IMG/VR virus record: IMGVR_UViG_3300042731_002222
Span: 1 to 20,746 of that record
Origin: a virus
Direction: 5' to 3' (one strand)
Length of the DNA: 20,746 nt
Numbering within the stretch: the first letter of the stretch is position 1; each line of letters starts with the position of its first letter. Shown here piece after piece: positions 9,385 through 19,433 of the stretch. The translations under genes and the position numbers were made by a program. The notes under the pieces were generated by a model. The model did no database searches. It saw only the letters and a program-made list of their open reading frames with translations, and was not told where the DNA came from.

Positions 9385-9656
9385 TATCTAACCTTTTTAT
9401 CTCTTTTACTGTGCGTATATGATTTGTGTAATTTTAAAGTTGTAACTGCGTCTACAAGATCGCTTACTACAAGCTGAATTAAAGTTACAAAGTCATTCAT
9501 ATACTTGTTTCTAAAAATATATGGCGAAATAGAGTTCTTAAGCGCATTCTCAGTATAGTCGTTTCCTAGATTTTTTCTATTATCAACTGCACCTTTTCTT
9601 GCGTCATAGGTTCTCTTTCTTCTAACCTTAAATAAATTAGTATGTAAATCTGCCAT
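9384..9656 (-). CDS. Small basic protein between gp6 and the gp7-position gene
   Basis: This 90-residue protein shares one base with the stop of gp6 (TAATG at 9656) and one base with the next start (TAATG at 9384), so it is locked into the wedge operon. It is basic at both ends (FKVRRKRTYDARKG; HSKRDKKVR). A hydrophobic or amphipathic helix lies in the middle (YMNDFVTLIQLVVSDLVDAV, about residues 52-71). It has no recognised domain. The coupling to both wedge genes suggests a small baseplate component or an assembly factor made in step with gp6 and gp7. The frame is real, judging by the perfect fit between neighbours; the function is unknown. Confidence 0.75.
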   Translation of the reverse strand: MADLHTNLFKVRRKRTYDARKGAVDNRKNLGNDYTENALKNSISPYIFRNKYMNDFVTLIQLVVSDLVDAVTTLKLHKSYTHSKRDKKVR

Positions 9657-11476
9657 TATAGAAGGTTTCTGTTTTTAGCCTGTATTCTAGTGAACACTGT
9701 GTTAGGAATTGCAGGTTCATCAAAATAAATTGATAAAGCTGCCATCTCACCGGTCGCTGCTCCATCTTTGACTAAAACATTATCTCTATCGTTCCAGCCT
9801 CCTCTAAATAAAGCTATTTCTTCTTTTCCTAAAATAATATCTCCAAAGGAATCTAAATTAATTACATCTTCAGGAAGAGCTGCACCACTTTCAAATGAAA
9901 CTTGTGTGTTTTTAACGTTTCTTTTAAAGAAAACATATTTTTGTTTTCCATTTCCAATATCTTCAAGAACTGGGGTAGAAGGGGTTACAGTGACAGTTTG
10001 AACGGTATAAAATCCTTGTCTTCTTGCGTCTTCTTCAGCTTTAGAAGTAAATCTAACATTTACAGAGTCTATGCCTTCTATTCCTTCTAACAATGCGACA
10101 ATATCTGATTTAGGAAGTCTGTCTCTTCTTGTGATAGACATTAAATAATCTGATATTTTTGTTCTAATTTGAGTAGATAAAGTTTCTTTGTGATAACCTT
10201 CAAAGTATCTTACCTTAACGTCCATTCTAAAATACTGTACACTTGGTTCAACTATCTTAACTTCAGTTGTTACCATCTGTTGATTAGAATTTTCAATTAA
10301 TTCTAAGATTGCATCTTTTTCTAACTGAGAAAATGTAAATTCATCTACACTTAAGCTAAAGTAATCTTTATCTTTAGTTAATTTTCTTTTAGTATCAGGT
10401 AGCATAAACAAATAAATTACATTATCATCGTCTATGTAACCGTCTTCGGTTGTATTGTATGCATCTAAATAAGAGAACATTCCGTATCTTGATAAGAAGT
10501 GTTCGTAATTTTCAGGTCTTGCAAGAACAAATGAATTGGATTGTAATGGAGCTATCAATTTAGTTAATTCTAAATTTTCAGGGTCAGCTCCTAATCTAGG
10601 TGTAACTGTGAATGAAGACTCTAATAGGTCATTTAAATTATATAGATTTCCTAGGCTATCACTTCCTTCAGTTTCAAATTTAAAAGTAAGGTCTTTTGAA
10701 CCAATTAAGTTACCCGCTGCGCCGTCTGTTTTAATATACTCGACCATAATTGAAGAACCTGTTGTAGGAACTTTACCAAAAGAGCCGTTTCCAAAATAAA
10801 TATCTAAACCTCCTGAAATTCCAGTTTTAACCAAGAACCCTTCAGTGTCTTTTTTCATATCATACATAGAATCATACTTCGTCCAAGGAATTGAATTAAC
10901 AGATACCTTTACATGATGATGGTCTGTGTTCGATTTTGTAATTATGTTAAATGATTGAAAATCTTCTCCTGTTCCCGTTACAGTTTGAGATTCTAAAGTA
11001 CCTTGTATAACCGGAACAAAAACATATTCAGAATTGCTCTTGTCTATTCTAAATTGATCGTTGTTAGTTCTTAAGATGTAATCTAAGGTGTTATCATTTG
11101 ACTTGATAATACAATTAGCTGGTATATTAAGAGCATCTCCTGCAAGTTCACTAGCTCCTGATGTGTTTAATCTAAGTTTAATCTCACCTGTAGCTGAGGC
11201 ACCTCTGAATGGATCGTGACCCGCTAGCCTTGAGAGACCATAAATAGATTCAGGGTTTTGTGCAGTTAATATATTTTGTTCAACTGTTGCGTCTTCTATA
11301 TAAAAGAAAACTAAACCCGTTAGTTGTTTTAAAACTTGTAAAATTTGTGCAAAAGGAGACGCTGTTGTAAAAAGCTCACCGGTCTTATTATAGACTCTGG
11401 TCATATATGCCTTTGTGTCAGCAATCATCTCGTTGACACGAATTCTAGAAGTACTTAAGAAATTATTATCTGCCAT
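9656..11476 (-). CDS. 6: Baseplate wedge protein gp6 (baseplate J-like)
   Basis: This 606-residue protein is close to T4 gp6 in length (660). gp6 dimers form the inner ring that links the wedges of the contractile-tail baseplate. The N-terminal region, residues about 40-107, carries the characteristic pattern: SPFAQILQVLKQLTGLVFFY, a predicted helix ending EQNILTA, then SIYGLSRLAGHDPFRGASAT and a beta strand. This matches gp6 proteins of marine T4-like phages as remembered. The C-terminal part contains the baseplate-J type segment with KISDYLMSITRRDRLPKSDI and IEGIDSVNVRF (about residues 440-480). It lies directly after gp25, as in several T4-like phages. The leader is purely A/T-rich (AATTAAAAAATAAAA) without a Shine-Dalgarno sequence. 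Confidence 0.88.
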   Translation of the reverse strand: MADNNFLSTSRIRVNEMIADTKAYMTRVYNKTGELFTTASPFAQILQVLKQLTGLVFFYIEDATVEQNILTAQNPESIYGLSRLAGHDPFRGASATGEIKLRLNTSGASELAGDALNIPANCIIKSNDNTLDYILRTNNDQFRIDKSNSEYVFVPVIQGTLESQTVTGTGEDFQSFNIITKSNTDHHHVKVSVNSIPWTKYDSMYDMKKDTEGFLVKTGISGGLDIYFGNGSFGKVPTTGSSIMVEYIKTDGAAGNLIGSKDLTFKFETEGSDSLGNLYNLNDLLESSFTVTPRLGADPENLELTKLIAPLQSNSFVLARPENYEHFLSRYGMFSYLDAYNTTEDGYIDDDNVIYLFMLPDTKRKLTKDKDYFSLSVDEFTFSQLEKDAILELIENSNQQMVTTEVKIVEPSVQYFRMDVKVRYFEGYHKETLSTQIRTKISDYLMSITRRDRLPKSDIVALLEGIEGIDSVNVRFTSKAEEDARRQGFYTVQTVTVTPSTPVLEDIGNGKQKYVFFKRNVKNTQVSFESGAALPEDVINLDSFGDIILGKEEIALFRGGWNDRDNVLVKDGAATGEMAALSIYFDEPAIPNTVFTRIQAKNRNLL

Positions 11477-11491
11477 TTTTATTTTTTAATT

Positions 11492-11845
11492 TTATATGTA
11501 AACTCCTACTTGATACTTAGAGTCTATATCTATATTTACAAACAACAGGTGACGGTCTACTTCTTCTGTGAAGTCAACATTCACTCTCGTGTTATATTTT
11601 CTAGATAGAGGTACAAAGGTTTCTAATTGGTCTTCTATTGTACTTGCTATCATTCTGTCATTATACCTTAAGGCATATACCAGATCGTCTAAATTTGCAC
11701 CAAAATTAGGTTCTCCCATTACATCTCCTTTTCTTGTAAAAAGAAGAGTTTCGATCTGAGTTAAAAGCTGCGCAATTTCTGAGCCAGCTTCTAATTTATT
11801 CTGATCGAAATTAGGGTCTCCAACGTCTCTGATATAGAATTCCAT
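11492..11845 (-). CDS. 25: Baseplate wedge protein gp25
   Basis: This protein of 117 residues belongs to the gp25/gpW lysozyme-like fold family (T4 gp25 is 132). It contributes to the conserved wedge core and contacts the sheath. The diagnostic segment at residues about 31-56 reads IETLLFTRKGDVMGEPNFGA followed by NLDDLVY, the usual L-L-x-T-x-x-G-x-x-x-x-x-P-x-F-G pattern. A helix and the FVPLSRKYN segment (about 77-85) follow, with a final beta hairpin. Despite the family name it is a structural protein and no catalytic claim is made. It is followed within 15 bases by gp6, the usual partner order. A 16-base A/T-only gap (TAAATAAATATATAGATAA) separates it from the gene before. Confidence 0.92.
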   Translation of the reverse strand: MEFYIRDVGDPNFDQNKLEAGSEIAQLLTQIETLLFTRKGDVMGEPNFGANLDDLVYALRYNDRMIASTIEDQLETFVPLSRKYNTRVNVDFTEEVDRHLLFVNIDIDSKYQVGVYI

Positions 11846-11861
11846 TTATCTATATATTTAT

Positions 11862-12695
11862 TTAAGAATGCATCATCCAGTCGACGCCTTCATCTCCTTT
11901 TATTTCTTCAATTACTGCTTCAAGTTCAGTTTCACCTAAACCTTGAATTGCATCTGGATTTACTTCTATATTTCCAGGAAGAGAGTAACCGAATATACTC
12001 ATCTTTTGCCCAAGAGAAACTTTAATTTTAGCAGCACAATATCTAAAGAATGCTTCATCACCAAACAGTGCACATTCTGGAATTGTTTCGTAAACGTTTA
12101 AAACACAGTCTTTCTGAGGGGTCTCTCCTGTAAATTTAAGTTCATGTGTTAATCTACTATAATTATAGCTAATAGGATTATGAAGGATTTGTCTAACTAA
12201 ATCAAAGTAAGACTCATTAACTACATAATACTGTAAGTTTTCTGCACCTTCTACAAGGTTTGCTCCACCATATAAACCTTGATACATCATTCTTTCGATA
12301 GCAAAATCACCAGAAGTAAAGTCAACGTCCATTCCTGCACCATATCTTGTTCCAGTTTCTTGTACACCGTAAACTGAATATACTTCTCCACCTCCTGTTG
12401 CAGCGTTCATCGCTGGAAGGGTAAGGCTTCTGCTATTTTTAAAAGCATCTGTTTCAAATACCTCTTTTGGAATTATTAAAAAGTTCTCTTTAACAGAGTA
12501 CTCATAATTCTTATAGAACCATTTCTTAGCCCTTTTAACTATGTTTTGAACCTCCTTTTTAGGAAGATTCATAGGAATCATACATGAGCCGGTAACATCA
12601 TCCGCTAATTCGTTAACGAAGTTATTAAAACATTCGCTATCGTAAGAAGGTGGAGTGTTTAACGCGTTATTATCACCTACAAATATATTACTCAT
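11862..12695 (-). CDS. Unknown conserved-looking virion protein upstream of gp25
   Basis: This protein of 277 residues has no recognised domain. The N-terminal part has an aromatic and basic helix, VKRAKKWFYKNYEYSVKENF (about residues 53-72), preceded by MIPMNLPKKEVQNI. A Gly-rich segment follows (AATGGGEVYSVYG, then RYGAGMDVDFTSGDF). A C-terminal helical region contains FFRYCAAKIKVSLGQKMSIF, and an acidic tail ends DWMMHS. There is no signal peptide or membrane helix. It sits four bases after the 77-residue gene and 16 bases before gp25, so it is co-transcribed with the wedge genes. It is probably a baseplate or neck component; a distant relation to T4 gp53, gp13 or gp14 was considered but nothing in the sequence decides it. 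Confidence 0.75.
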   Translation of the reverse strand: MSNIFVGDNNALNTPPSYDSECFNNFVNELADDVTGSCMIPMNLPKKEVQNIVKRAKKWFYKNYEYSVKENFLIIPKEVFETDAFKNSRSLTLPAMNAATGGGEVYSVYGVQETGTRYGAGMDVDFTSGDFAIERMMYQGLYGGANLVEGAENLQYYVVNESYFDLVRQILHNPISYNYSRLTHELKFTGETPQKDCVLNVYETIPECALFGDEAFFRYCAAKIKVSLGQKMSIFGYSLPGNIEVNPDAIQGLGETELEAVIEEIKGDEGVDWMMHS

Positions 12696-12699
12696 TTCT

Positions 12700-12933
12700 T
12701 TACTTTATTTTTCTATTTATTTTATGGTCTTTCCAGAATTTATTTATCGTGTCCTTTAGGTCTTTAAGTAACTTAGTGACTTTTGGCCTATCTTCGTCAT
12801 TATATACATTAGTCATTTCAGAAGGTATCATATCTTTTAATAAAGAATGTGGAATCCCTCTATATACAAGTGTTTCATCCACTTTTTCAGAAGACTCTTT
12901 AATAAACTCGTTAAAATTATTTAAATGTTTCAT
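12700..12933 (-). CDS. Small protein with T4-type capsid-targeting N-terminus
   Basis: This protein of 77 residues starts MKHLNNFNEFIKES. The form MK-x-x-x-x-F-x-E-F-I-x-E/S closely resembles the capsid-targeting propeptide of T4 internal proteins (MKTYQEFIAE), which the prohead protease cuts after an (L/I)-x-E motif. Here the predicted cut is after I11-K12-E13. The mature part would be about 64 residues with VYRGIPHSLLKDM (residues 23-35) and a highly basic C-terminal helix (VTKLLKDLKDTINKFWKDHK). The VYRG segment recalls the first Arg motif of ADP-ribosyltransferases, but the protein is far too short for that fold. Its start overlaps the amidoligase stop as ATGA. A packaged internal protein is an inference; the reading frame itself is well placed. 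Confidence 0.7.
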   Translation of the reverse strand: MKHLNNFNEFIKESSEKVDETLVYRGIPHSLLKDMIPSEMTNVYNDEDRPKVTKLLKDLKDTINKFWKDHKINRKIK

Positions 12934-14222
12934 ACTTCAGTATATAGTATCATTTCAGTCTCATTAAACTTGGCGGTTTTCTTATCATACATTCCTTCTC
13001 TAAAAATACCACCATACATCGTTCCTTTAAATGTACCTTTTCCGTATATATAGCAGTCTTTTGCTACGACTGAACTGTGTACATAAGAACTTTTAATCTT
13101 AGAACCGTTTATTTGTGTAGATTGATAGAAATTACATTCCGTAATATCAGCTCCTTCTACATCACATCCAAAAATATCGCACTGTAAGAGCTCTCCTCTC
13201 AAATAACACTTTACGAATTCATAGGCTTGAATATCTACACAATACTCTAATCTTCCTCCTTCAACTTGAATTCTACCAACATCAGAGTCATAATTAATTT
13301 TACCCGAAGAAAGGTCGCCGTGTGTAAACAACTTAATAACTCTTTCTCTAACCATAGGCCAATATAAGTCTAATATCTTAGGGTCTTTTTTAAGGTCTAC
13401 AAAAAATTCAACATTTTTCCAACCTTTTTCAATCTCTCTCCAGTCGTGAAAAGATTTAATCACTCTGTCATTTTTTGCAAGAATTTTTCTAAGCTCTATT
13501 GAGTTCATTTGAGTAAACTCCTTTGACTCAGTACTATTCCATAACTGTGTTAAAAATAAATCTAAAACATGAAGTATTTTAGAAGTTTTCTTTTCCCAAT
13601 CTTGCCCACCTAAATATCTAAATTCTAAATAATTTTTATGTCTCTTTTCAAAGTTAACTCCATAGTACTTAGAGTCAGGAAAAATAAAGTTGTTTGCGTT
13701 TATATGATTTCCATCGAATGTATAAACGTCACTCTTAGGTAAAACAAATTTAATTGATTTTGCGTAAGCTGAATTTTCTCTATCTGGAAAAAACTTAAAT
13801 ACTTGAGATTCTTTGAAATCTAAAATAAATTTTAAGACGTTCATTTTAGATATTCTATACTTATCACCTATCTTATTCTTGTCAAATGAAAGATTCAAAT
13901 GTATTGAAGACCTGTCATTAGTGTAACCGTTTTTAGAAATCCAATCACAAACCCTGATAATCATAAGTCTTGCGTTGTGATAAGGTAAGGCACCTGTAAC
14001 TAATTCCATTAATTTAGCACCTCCACTCATATCAGGCTCGAGCTTAAACTCTTTATCAGTTACCTCAAAATCACTATGAGCCTTGTCTTCTACTCTGATT
14101 TTCTTACCTAACAGAGAACCGAGTTCTTTTGCAGTTTTCTCAATACTAAGATTAGAGTAAAACTCAAACTCTACTCCGACAAGAGCATTTGACAGAAATT
14201 TAGATTCAGTTATGTTATTCAT
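12930..14222 (-). CDS. Amidoligase-like enzyme with C-terminal beta-helix-like repeats
   Basis: This protein of 430 residues shows the motif series of the Amidoligase_2 family, part of the glutamine synthetase/GCS-like carboxylate-amine ligase fold. These enzymes join a carboxylate to an amine using ATP. Visible motifs are GVEFEF (residues 16-21, metal-binding Glu pair), EPDMS (62-66) followed by MELVTGALP (72-80), SSIHLNLSF (105-113) and NYLEFRYLGGQDWE (197-210, the Glu-Phe-Arg motif). Residues about 343-412 form short repeats such as CDIFGCDVEGADITECNF, like a pentapeptide or right-handed beta-helix. It follows a terminator and a candidate promoter and overlaps the 77-residue gene by four bases (ATGA). 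The substrate is unknown; peptidoglycan peptides or a host or virion protein are possibilities. Family assignment is fairly sure; activity is inferred. Confidence 0.75.
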   Translation of the reverse strand: MNNITESKFLSNALVGVEFEFYSNLSIEKTAKELGSLLGKKIRVEDKAHSDFEVTDKEFKLEPDMSGGAKLMELVTGALPYHNARLMIIRVCDWISKNGYTNDRSSIHLNLSFDKNKIGDKYRISKMNVLKFILDFKESQVFKFFPDRENSAYAKSIKFVLPKSDVYTFDGNHINANNFIFPDSKYYGVNFEKRHKNYLEFRYLGGQDWEKKTSKILHVLDLFLTQLWNSTESKEFTQMNSIELRKILAKNDRVIKSFHDWREIEKGWKNVEFFVDLKKDPKILDLYWPMVRERVIKLFTHGDLSSGKINYDSDVGRIQVEGGRLEYCVDIQAYEFVKCYLRGELLQCDIFGCDVEGADITECNFYQSTQINGSKIKSSYVHSSVVAKDCYIYGKGTFKGTMYGGIFREGMYDKKTAKFNETEMILYTEV

Positions 14223-14245
14223 TCTAGAATGTATACTTAAGTTGG

Positions 14246-14255
14246 TTTATATATC
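14246..14255 (-). promoter_or_regulatory. Candidate phage late promoter element GATATATAAA
   Basis: On the minus strand this reads GATATATAAA, 24 bases upstream of the amidoligase start and just downstream of the intrinsic terminator of the preceding unit. That is where a new promoter would be needed. The identical ten bases occur upstream of the S1-like gene, and GATATATA recurs upstream of the partial gene at the left edge. It resembles the TATAAATA late box of T4-type phages. There is no experimental support. Confidence 0.5.
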
Positions 14256-14260
14256 TCTCT

Positions 14261-14293
14261 AAAAAGAAGAAAGCCTGGTTATCGCCCAGGCTT
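14261..14293 (-). terminator. Intrinsic terminator after the S1-like gene
   Basis: On the minus strand a perfect 8-bp stem, AAGCCTGG with CCAGGCTT (14293-14286 and 14278-14271), encloses a 7-base loop GCGATAA. It is followed at once by TCTTCTTTTT (14270-14261). The T-rich tail is on the minus-strand side, so it ends transcription coming from the S1-like gene, about 80 bases after its stop. A weaker hairpin lies closer to the stop: AAGCTG/CAGCTT at 14361-14381, with the stop codon in its loop and followed by AAAATTTTT. Confidence 0.85.
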
Positions 14294-14372
14294 CCACTCT
14301 TAAAAAAATCTAAGTATCTTTTAGTAAATATACAAAAAAAATACGACCCGGAAAAATTTTAAGCTGACTTTT

Positions 14373-15566
14373 TTACAGCTTTAAGAAAACTTTTCTGGTT
14401 TCTTCCTCTATTCTTGATATTTCAACATTAACAGTATTACCCTGCTCGTACTCTTTTATTGAATTTTCAGGAAGTTCTGAGATGTGAAGTAATCCTGCAA
14501 CACCGTCTTCAATTTCTATAAATACACCATAATCTTTAACGGATTTGATTTTACCATCAACTCTACATGGTGTAGAGTATTTTTTAGAAACTCCATTCCA
14601 AGGATTTACTCTCTCAACTCTTTCAACTTGTGTTAACGTTATTTTCGTATTACTAATAATATCTTTAATCTTAAATTCTATTTCTTCACCTGGCTTAATG
14701 TCTTGTTTCTTGTGTCTTTTTAAGTATTCTGGAGATAGGTCATTTATATGAATCATACCAGTAAGACACGTGTTAAATTCAACAAAGACACCATACTTAG
14801 CGCTTCCAGTTACATGACCCTTTTGAGTATTTTCAAGGTCACCTTTTAATTTTTCTATTTGACCAGGAATCATTGCCTGTAAATACTTTCTATGAGAAAC
14901 AACAATTGTAGACTTTTCATTTGAGTATGTTACAGGAACAAAATACATTTCTTGTCCAATGATCGATTCAAAATCATGAAGCTTGTTAATACCTGCTAAA
15001 GAACCTGGCATAAAACACTCAACTCCTTGAATATCTACCATGTATCCTCCACCCGGAATCATCTTTAAGACTTTACCTACATAGGCTGTATTACCTTCTT
15101 CTATAGAAGCTAGAATTTCGTTGAATTTAGCAGTTGCCATTCCAGCACCAATAGAACCTATGACAAACCCTCTCTTGTTAGAAGATTTATCAGAAGTTAC
15201 TTCTACATCAACCAACATTCCAGCTGCAATGTTTTCTCTGATTTCAGAGTCTTCTCTGTTTAAATCAATGTAAACATTTTCTCTGTACCCTATATCAACC
15301 GAAGCCCAGTGGTCTTCGATTGCATATATTTTACCTGAATAAGTTTGACCTATTTGAACATTAAAGACTACACCACCATCTCTGTCGTGGTTTTCATAAA
15401 GGTCTAAAAGTTCTTGGGCGTAAGGTTCTCTAGAAAATACTTTTACTCCTTGTGGAGCTTTAATGTGAGGATTTGGTTTTCTAGTTTTTGTTGGGCAATG
15501 TGCCTCATAAGCATCCCAGTCAAATTCTTCTGTTTCGATCTGAGAGTCTAAGATTTCTTCAATCAT
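14373..15566 (-). CDS. Ribosomal protein S1-like protein with four S1 domains
   Basis: This 397-residue protein has four OB-fold S1 RNA-binding domains at about 72-140, 158-228, 243-315 and 331-397. The last two are canonical (GSAKYGVFVEF with GMIHINDLS; KSVKDYGVFIEI with GLLHISELP). Domain 2 carries GGGYMVDIQGVECFMPGS, the form typical of ribosome-binding domain 2 of bacterial S1. The N-terminus EEFDWDAYEA and the NPW linker after domain 3 match the Bacteroidota S1 pattern as remembered. The layout is therefore collinear with domains 1-4 of a six-domain host S1, with the last two missing. S1 recruits mRNA to the 30S subunit; a phage copy could favour phage mRNAs. The gene has its own candidate promoter and terminator. 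The leader is AAAAAAATATAA, with no Shine-Dalgarno sequence. Confidence 0.9.
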   Translation of the reverse strand: MIEEILDSQIETEEFDWDAYEAHCPTKTRKPNPHIKAPQGVKVFSREPYAQELLDLYENHDRDGGVVFNVQIGQTYSGKIYAIEDHWASVDIGYRENVYIDLNREDSEIRENIAAGMLVDVEVTSDKSSNKRGFVIGSIGAGMATAKFNEILASIEEGNTAYVGKVLKMIPGGGYMVDIQGVECFMPGSLAGINKLHDFESIIGQEMYFVPVTYSNEKSTIVVSHRKYLQAMIPGQIEKLKGDLENTQKGHVTGSAKYGVFVEFNTCLTGMIHINDLSPEYLKRHKKQDIKPGEEIEFKIKDIISNTKITLTQVERVERVNPWNGVSKKYSTPCRVDGKIKSVKDYGVFIEIEDGVAGLLHISELPENSIKEYEQGNTVNVEISRIEEETRKVFLKL

Positions 15567-15603: not shown

Positions 15604-15613
15604 TTTATATATC
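15604..15613 (-). promoter_or_regulatory. Candidate phage late promoter element GATATATAAA
   Basis: On the minus strand this reads GATATATAAA, 38 bases upstream of the S1-like start in a 65-base gap. It is identical over ten bases to the element before the amidoligase gene. The A/T-rich leader that follows (AAGTATAATTTACAGTTTAA) could hold a second -10-like box, TATAAT. No terminator for the upstream block is visible in this gap, so read-through from the spike block is also possible. Confidence 0.5.
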
Positions 15614-18207: not shown

Positions 18208-19411
18208 CGTGTATATTTCCTAAAGATTCTCTGGCAGCGCTATTTAACGCGTCTCCGATGTTAGTTCCAGGAGGAACGCTGTCAGCGAAAACGTTATCAA
18301 AAATTTGTTGAGAAACCTCTCTTTGTTGGCTAGGAAGATCGGTTGCGCTGTCTACTCCTTGAACAAAATCTTGATAAATGTTTTCAAAATTGGGTGTATT
18401 TCTTCTAACTATGTCAGAAGCCTGTTGTTTTAACTCTTGTACTTTCTGTTGGCCCATTCTTTCTAAATCACCAACTGCTCTTTCTGCTAAGTCATTTAAC
18501 TTTTCTTCTCCTTTAGACAACAAGTAGTCTTTTAAACTTCCATGTTCTAGGTCTTCAGGATCGTATGATGGTGCCTCTTTTTCATCGTTTCTAGAATCAA
18601 CTATCATACCGTTTAAGACTCTAGCATCAACTTTATGTAATTGCTCGTATGTAAAATCTAACGTATTAACGGCGGCTCCTTCAGGATTTTTAGATAAGTC
18701 GGCAAACGGGGTTGCTCCACTATCTAATAACCATTCACAATATCCTAGTTGAAAATAAAAGAATGGTCTACCTTTACTTCCTGATATTCCAGTATTACTG
18801 TTTTCAATTCCAAGCGAAGGTTTAAAGTTACTAGGAAACTCTCTTAAACTTTCTCTATTCGCCTTTGGTAAACCTCCAATAGTTGGTTTAGATTGATTTT
18901 TAATTTGTCTAATTTCAGTTACATATATTCCAACTGAAAATTTTCTAAGGTTAGCAGGTAAAACATAAGTCCACTTTTCATCATCCCATACCGCTTTCTT
19001 ATATAAGTGCATTAGACCTGCAATAGGTAGATTTAAACTTTCTAGACATGCAATACTAATAGCAGCATCATCTCCTCCCCAATAAGCATTCATTTTATTG
19101 TACTTAACTAATCTATCTAAACCTGATAGGGTCTGAAAAGTCCAAGGCAATTCTGAATTAATTTCGAAAAGAGCCTTTTTAAAGTTTTGAAGAGCCTCTA
19201 ACTTTTCTTCCCATTTAGTAGCATTTACATTATTACCGTCTATTAGGTTTTCTTGCATCCACGCTTCGGCTGCACCTGAAAAAAGAGGTGACTTTGCAGG
19301 ATTTGACCTATCAAATAATAGGACAAACGAAAGGTACGTCGGGTCTTGATAAGGGTATCTCTTATTAAGCCTTCCTTTTCTAAAATCTAATCCTGTCTTA
19401 AAGTCTGCCAT
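18194..19411 (-). CDS. Putative tail-tube/baseplate junction protein (gp48/gp54-like position)
   Basis: This 405-residue virion protein is placed between the hub and spike genes. The N-terminal part begins MADFKTGLDFRKGRLNKRYP and contains PTYLSFVLLFD. Residues about 90-170 hold LPWTFQTLSGLDRL, a helix-and-strand stretch and YVLPANLRKFSVGIYVTEIR. The last resembles the strand pattern of tube-fold proteins such as T4 gp19, gp48 and gp54, which cap the hub and start tube growth. The C-terminal 130 residues are helical and charged (LNDLAERAVGDLERMGQQKV, later SLGNIHDGDG), suggesting a coiled region. The last 14 bases overlap the spike start. The structural role is secure from context; the gp48/gp54 identity is a guess from position and one motif. 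Confidence 0.75.
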   Translation of the reverse strand: MADFKTGLDFRKGRLNKRYPYQDPTYLSFVLLFDRSNPAKSPLFSGAAEAWMQENLIDGNNVNATKWEEKLEALQNFKKALFEINSELPWTFQTLSGLDRLVKYNKMNAYWGGDDAAISIACLESLNLPIAGLMHLYKKAVWDDEKWTYVLPANLRKFSVGIYVTEIRQIKNQSKPTIGGLPKANRESLREFPSNFKPSLGIENSNTGISGSKGRPFFYFQLGYCEWLLDSGATPFADLSKNPEGAAVNTLDFTYEQLHKVDARVLNGMIVDSRNDEKEAPSYDPEDLEHGSLKDYLLSKGEEKLNDLAERAVGDLERMGQQKVQELKQQASDIVRRNTPNFENIYQDFVQGVDSATDLPSQQREVSQQIFDNVFADSVPPGTNIGDALNSAARESLGNIHDGDG

Positions 19412-19433
19412 GTCTTATATATTCATTTTAGTA

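Follow-up and report, generated by a model that had tools for sequence, protein, structure and literature searches.

A beta-helix-fused member of the phage Amidoligase_2 family encoded beside neck and baseplate genes

We found that a stretch of phage DNA of 20,746 nucleotides (hereafter the window) encodes a 430-residue protein that belongs to a beta-helix-fused, tail-linked subfamily of phage Amidoligase_2, a variant of a known family. The family, fold, tail, conserved catalytic residues, operon position and purifying selection are well supported. Our preferred reading, to which we give a probability of about 0.4, is that the protein is a ligase resembling gamma-glutamylcysteine synthetase (GCS), fused to a beta-helix and made late in a neck/baseplate operon, and that it modifies a virion or assembly protein. 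Earlier readings of phage amidoligases place them in early cassettes, as enzymes acting on the cell wall or on metabolites; a large, strongly conserved subfamily that heads a neck/baseplate operon in huge phages and has relatives among phages of 634–735 kb points to a candidate late step of peptide-bond formation.

Family assignment and relatives

The amidoligase gene is a real open reading frame on the minus strand, starting with ATG at 14222 and running down to 12930, stop codon included (12930–14222). The assignment proposed in the initial annotation held up in a profile search, in which the protein matched PF12224 (Amidoligase_2) with 28 bits (E 2.5e-6; Pfam gathering cut-off 22); when 46 diverse relatives were scanned singly, 35 also matched (E ≤ 0.01; best E 3.8e-10). 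The match in the window protein covers residues 14–100 only, and the C-terminal half of the domain was linked via a homologue in phage Atu_ph07. All of the ordered motifs that had been read from the sequence were present in the translation (G16-V-E18-F-E20-F, E62-P-D64-M-S, S106-I-H108-L-N110-L-S and L199-E-F-R202), as was E73-x6-P80 downstream of E62-P-D64-M-S, although the proline of this last motif is not conserved in the family. The gene is under purifying selection, with a dN/dS (0.05–0.12) within the range of the neck, gp25 and gp6 genes. Together with the above-threshold match and the matching relatives, this value argues that neither the reading frame nor the family assignment is due to chance. 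A PHROGs search gave no useful match, and a search of PDB sequences yielded weak matches to pentapeptide and solenoid proteins but no relative of the amidoligase. TFIIE_alpha and other Pfam matches were discarded as weak or below cut-off.

A first search of viral contigs yielded 32 loci with an amidoligase relative, and a profile search yielded at least 547 stretches encoding one, of which the best 80 were kept, a sample that leans to close relatives. A homologue of 41.5% identity is encoded by LR756500 (462 kb) and homologues of 30–33% identity by LR756501-504 and LR745206 (634–735 kb), and remote homologues of the amidoligase core were found in Atu_ph07 and Salicola phage SCTP-2. Five phage genomes over 634 kb have been described as the Mahaphage clade, with predicted Bacteroidetes hosts (PMC7162821), and we infer that LR756501-504 and LR745206 are those five genomes. 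For both its gp6 and its neck protein, the window is closest to these huge phages, followed by Lak, Tenacibaculum, Flavobacterium and Chryseobacterium phages, suggesting that a Bacteroidota host is likely for the window phage. A profile search detected no amidoligase homologue in Lak-A1, Lak-B6, pT24, PTm1, PAU, MA9V-2 or MaF61; since these relatives bear tails, an amidoligase is not a general requirement of tail assembly. In SCTP-2 (locus L040, 8924–12684, with gp125 and gp124), the gp125 query also matched the adjoining gp124, which suggests two adjacent amidoligase-related genes.

Predicted ligase domain and beta-helix tail

An AlphaFold2 model of the 430-residue protein, built with 46 sequences, was confident (pLDDT 89.7, pTM 0.80). 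We assigned residues 1–235 (13518–14222, minus strand) to a GS/GCS-type catalytic domain based on the VIA-align match to glutamine synthetase (GS) and on conservation (E18, E20, D64, E73, H108, N110, E200 and R202). Glutamine synthetase was the best fold match to this region (Z 11.9, rmsd 3.1 over 181 residues; GS matches at Z 11–12), with about 12% identity and a different C-terminus. Foldseek TM-scores to GS were low (0.25–0.30, rmsd about 15 A), an expected effect of superposing both domains of the model at once, and the fold assignment therefore relies on VIA-align of the single domain and not on the Foldseek TM-score. Matches among viral models were mostly 'Amidoligase enzyme' entries, and A0A6J5PQ40 is a full-length relative (TM 0.86). 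The predicted model thus bears out the fold that had been claimed from the letters alone, and the window protein very probably adopts a GS/GCS-type amidoligase fold.

All 46 diverse members share G16, E18, E20, E62, D64, S66, E73, T76, N110, S112, K185, Y186, Y187, N190, E200 and R202; H108 is present in 45 of them and replaced by Gln in the remaining one (L119, SVQVN), and the catalytic residues are retained also in the huge-phage homologues of 30% identity. The invariant N110 stands at the second His of H-x-H, a feature that the initial annotation took as a possible sign of changed or lost activity. We abandoned this view, and with it active-site decay, because E. coli GshA also has Asn at this position (H150-Y-N152) and because N110 is found in every member. 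H-x-N is the pattern of E. coli GshA, an active enzyme; glutamine synthetase uses H-x-H, which is also found in YbdK. Among phage proteins, LUZ24 gp18 has H-L-H and the PF12224 member of Atu_ph07 has H-I-N; as the second His is absent from the latter and from GshA, we did not treat it as family-defining.

The likeness to GshA extends to the order of E27, E29, D60, E67, H150, N152, E328 and R330, which are established metal and phosphate ligands of that enzyme and which match the residue order of the window protein (ExE, D/E, H-x-N, ExR), although GshA is without the beta-helix tail. In the GCS2 (PF04107) protein of locus L145, EPGGQLELS resembles EPDMSGG...EL. A profile comparison with GCS2 (PF04107) detected no similarity (hhalign probability 0.7%, at low profile diversity), and an alignment of three remote phage amidoligases was of insufficient quality for such a comparison. 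Since the GCS2 comparison gave nothing usable, the link to GCS rests on fold and motif order, which also lead us to predict that the catalytic residues lie in one pocket. The conservation makes it quite probable that the predicted ligase is catalytically competent. The protein could instead be a structural pseudoenzyme, its non-catalytic GS/GCS fold serving as a scaffold in the virion or during assembly, as would suit a gene in a late virion operon and the replacement of H108 by Gln in one member; several tail proteins are solenoids. This is improbable, however, given that all catalytic positions other than H108 are invariant in 46/46 members and that Gln at the place of H108 has a parallel in the PF04107 GCS-family protein of L145 (LQVSLDF).

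Residues ~320–428 (12939–13265, minus strand) are predicted to form a pentapeptide-type beta-helix with a conserved cap (G400, G405, R408 and G410), invariant even in mahaphage members. The model confirmed the beta-helix-like tail noted earlier, but over a longer extent than the residues 343–412 first claimed. Modelled alone, the C-terminal 163 residues gave a helix and a beta-solenoid (pLDDT 96.2), with a strand spacing of ~5 residues that continues to the protein end. The pentapeptide repeat score of the tail was 34, compared to 23.9 ± 2.4 in shuffled sequences (p about 7e-4), and exceeded the shuffles more strongly in mahaphage members. In VIA-align, the tail matched several beta-helices including pentapeptide proteins (Z 7–8, rmsd about 2.5–3.5; top row 4kh3, Z 9.9), with other beta-helices scoring like the pentapeptide ones. 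NCBIfam returned a weak Qnr pentapeptide-repeat match to residues 344–421 and nothing else, and a Pfam scan of the 430-residue protein gave no pentapeptide match. The tail resembles pentapeptide repeat proteins (AlbG, MfpA, Qnr) in its ~5-residue strand spacing, but its repeats are imperfect. Qnr-like DNA mimicry was considered and dropped, as the net charge is only -2. A literature search of incomplete coverage found no paper on a fusion of pentapeptide repeats to an amidoligase.

Gene order around the amidoligase

The neighboring window genes listed here all lie on the minus strand. Upstream of the amidoligase is a ribosomal-S1-like gene (14373–15566; PF00575 E 3e-26, three stretches). The next core operon gene downstream encodes a neck protein (T4 gp13-like/head-tail adaptor Ad2; 11862–12695; phrog_211 E 9e-10), whose homologues in Tenacibaculum, Chryseobacterium and Flavobacterium phages carry that annotation, followed by genes for a gp25-like baseplate wedge (11492–11845; PF04965 E 2.7e-5, just under its cut-off) and a gp6-like baseplate wedge (9656–11476; phrog_219 E 4e-35). 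Surveying the neighbors of homologues, as had been suggested at the outset, revealed the S1-like gene upstream in 110 and the neck gene downstream in 110 of 121 fetched loci, many of them near-identical, with a gap between amidoligase and neck genes of mostly 1–18 nt. The S1-like gene is itself located inside a virion-gene region.

An intrinsic-terminator-like hairpin follows the S1-like gene (14269–14295, minus strand; a 10-bp stem then a T run, a consensus match only), and a putative promoter-like (TATA-like) element, GATATATAAACCAACTTAAGT, lies ahead of the amidoligase ATG (14235–14255, minus strand) and has counterparts of related sequence in many loci. These two features suggest that the amidoligase is probably the first gene of the neck/gp25/gp6 transcript. 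Co-transcription with virion genes, as originally proposed, was thus corroborated and is conserved in the family, but the gene adjoins the neck gene at the head of the operon and is not placed among the wedge genes. Further copies of the shorter string ATATATAA lie immediately upstream of the S1-like gene (15605–15612) and of an ORF starting at 19411 (19415–19422), but three occurrences in the window do not exceed chance expectation.

Intervening ORFs were examined in LR756500 and L119, and the identifiable ones encode homing endonucleases. Such genes were seen inserted beside the amidoligase and neck genes in several huge-phage relatives: L034 (15074–16276), L038 (16316–18106) and L119 (919–1557). 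The last is a phage-like contig of a Deltaproteobacteria MAG that carries S1, amidoligase (1560–2963, with Gln for His108), neck, gp25 and gp6 genes. Mahaphages keep the amidoligase but have lost the tight operon order, although several have a hub, neck or gp25 gene no more than about 10 kb away, indicating that co-transcription is not essential. Amidoligase genes also lie near head or tail genes in a Porphyromonas phage and in Atu_ph07, so linkage to virion genes is not unique to the window family, which is the strongest case among those examined. Atu_ph07 AUZ94978 (A0A2L0UZM1, 'Amidoligase enzyme') shares the homologous core (profile E 7e-21), H-I-N, E-F-R and a location in a head-gene region, two genes from portal, but it has a larger N-terminal part, no beta-helix tail and an orientation opposite to its portal neighbors. 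The CDS 170-215 cluster of Atu_ph07 is rich in virion proteins (PMC6102473), and AUZ94978 appears to fall within it, going by an inferred gp numbering.

Possible substrates

The window protein would act as an ATP-dependent carboxylate-amine ligase, made late in infection, that combines a GCS-like active site with a pentapeptide-type beta-helix. E18, E20, D64/E62, E73, H108 and E200 would bind two or three Mg ions, and R202 would sit on the phosphate. The enzyme would activate a carboxylate, probably that of a glutamyl side chain or of a C-terminus, as an acyl phosphate, which an amine would then attack. Least certain are the last steps, in which the beta-helix would dock the ligase onto a partner from the neck, the tail or the assembly process, and a virion or assembly protein would emerge modified. 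From its genomic context we rate such a protein as the substrate at somewhat below an even chance, and only moderately ahead of a cell-wall or host substrate. More tentatively still, the enzyme might covalently modify or crosslink the phage's own neck/tail proteins during assembly, guided by the beta-helix. If true, the virion would carry an enzyme-made isopeptide or glutamyl modification.

A late operon position is no proof of a virion role, because genes for lysis or the cell wall may be expressed late as well. Amidoligase chemistry fits the D-Glu/meso-DAP stem peptides of peptidoglycan, and the protein could cap or alter these late, either to exclude superinfecting phages or to remodel the wall; the beta-helix would then bind or position it at the wall. 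Such a role, altering peptidoglycan or blocking superinfection, has been proposed for phage amidoligase cassettes (PMC5498523, PMC10580990). The phage Amidoligase_2 members LUZ24 gp18, tf and UFV-P2 ORF23 resemble the window protein in family match, motif order and GS/GCS fold; LUZ24 gp18, however, has H-L-H and no beta-helix seen in its sequence, where the window protein combines H-x-N with a beta-helix. The neighbors of LUZ24 gp18 are COOH.NH2 ligase, GATase, RimK-like ATP-grasp and GGCT genes, an early enzyme cassette, whereas the window gene lies with neck/baseplate genes. Our searches for cassette partners covered related phage records, the window's own genome being a fragment only. PF14395 (COOH-NH2 ligase) was found in 0/7 of these records (LR756500, LR756501, LR756502, LR756504, LR745206, Atu_ph07 and SCTP-2; LUZ24 control positive), and PF13522 (class II glutamine amidotransferase) in 0/7 of the same five huge phages, Atu_ph07 and SCTP-2 (controls 14/14). 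GGACT/gamma-glutamyl cyclotransferase (PF06094) was present in 3/5 huge phages, unlinked to the amidoligase; it agrees with a cell-wall role and, as a possible glutamyl-amine partner, counts against a virion substrate. Given the missing cassette partners, the neck/baseplate location and a near-universal retention and virion-like constraint that would be unusual for an exclusion gene, we regard action on the cell wall as a somewhat less likely reading than the virion one.

Modification of a host protein or a small molecule (a glutamyl-amine type metabolite), with the tail operon merely the site of late expression, would agree with the resemblance of H-x-N to GshA; GCS/GmaS-like enzymes usually act on free glutamate. 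We consider it unlikely, since the C-terminal solenoid is conserved down to 30% identity, suggesting a macromolecular partner, and the linkage to the neck gene is constant.

A 77-residue ORF found only in the nearest relatives overlaps the amidoligase stop (12700–12933, minus strand). It begins with MKHLNNFNEFIKES, which resembles the T4 capsid-targeting leader, and many ORFs in related loci begin similarly (e.g., MNKFKTYGQFLNESN and MKHVQLFEQFLNEG); such starts may mark head-packaged proteins.
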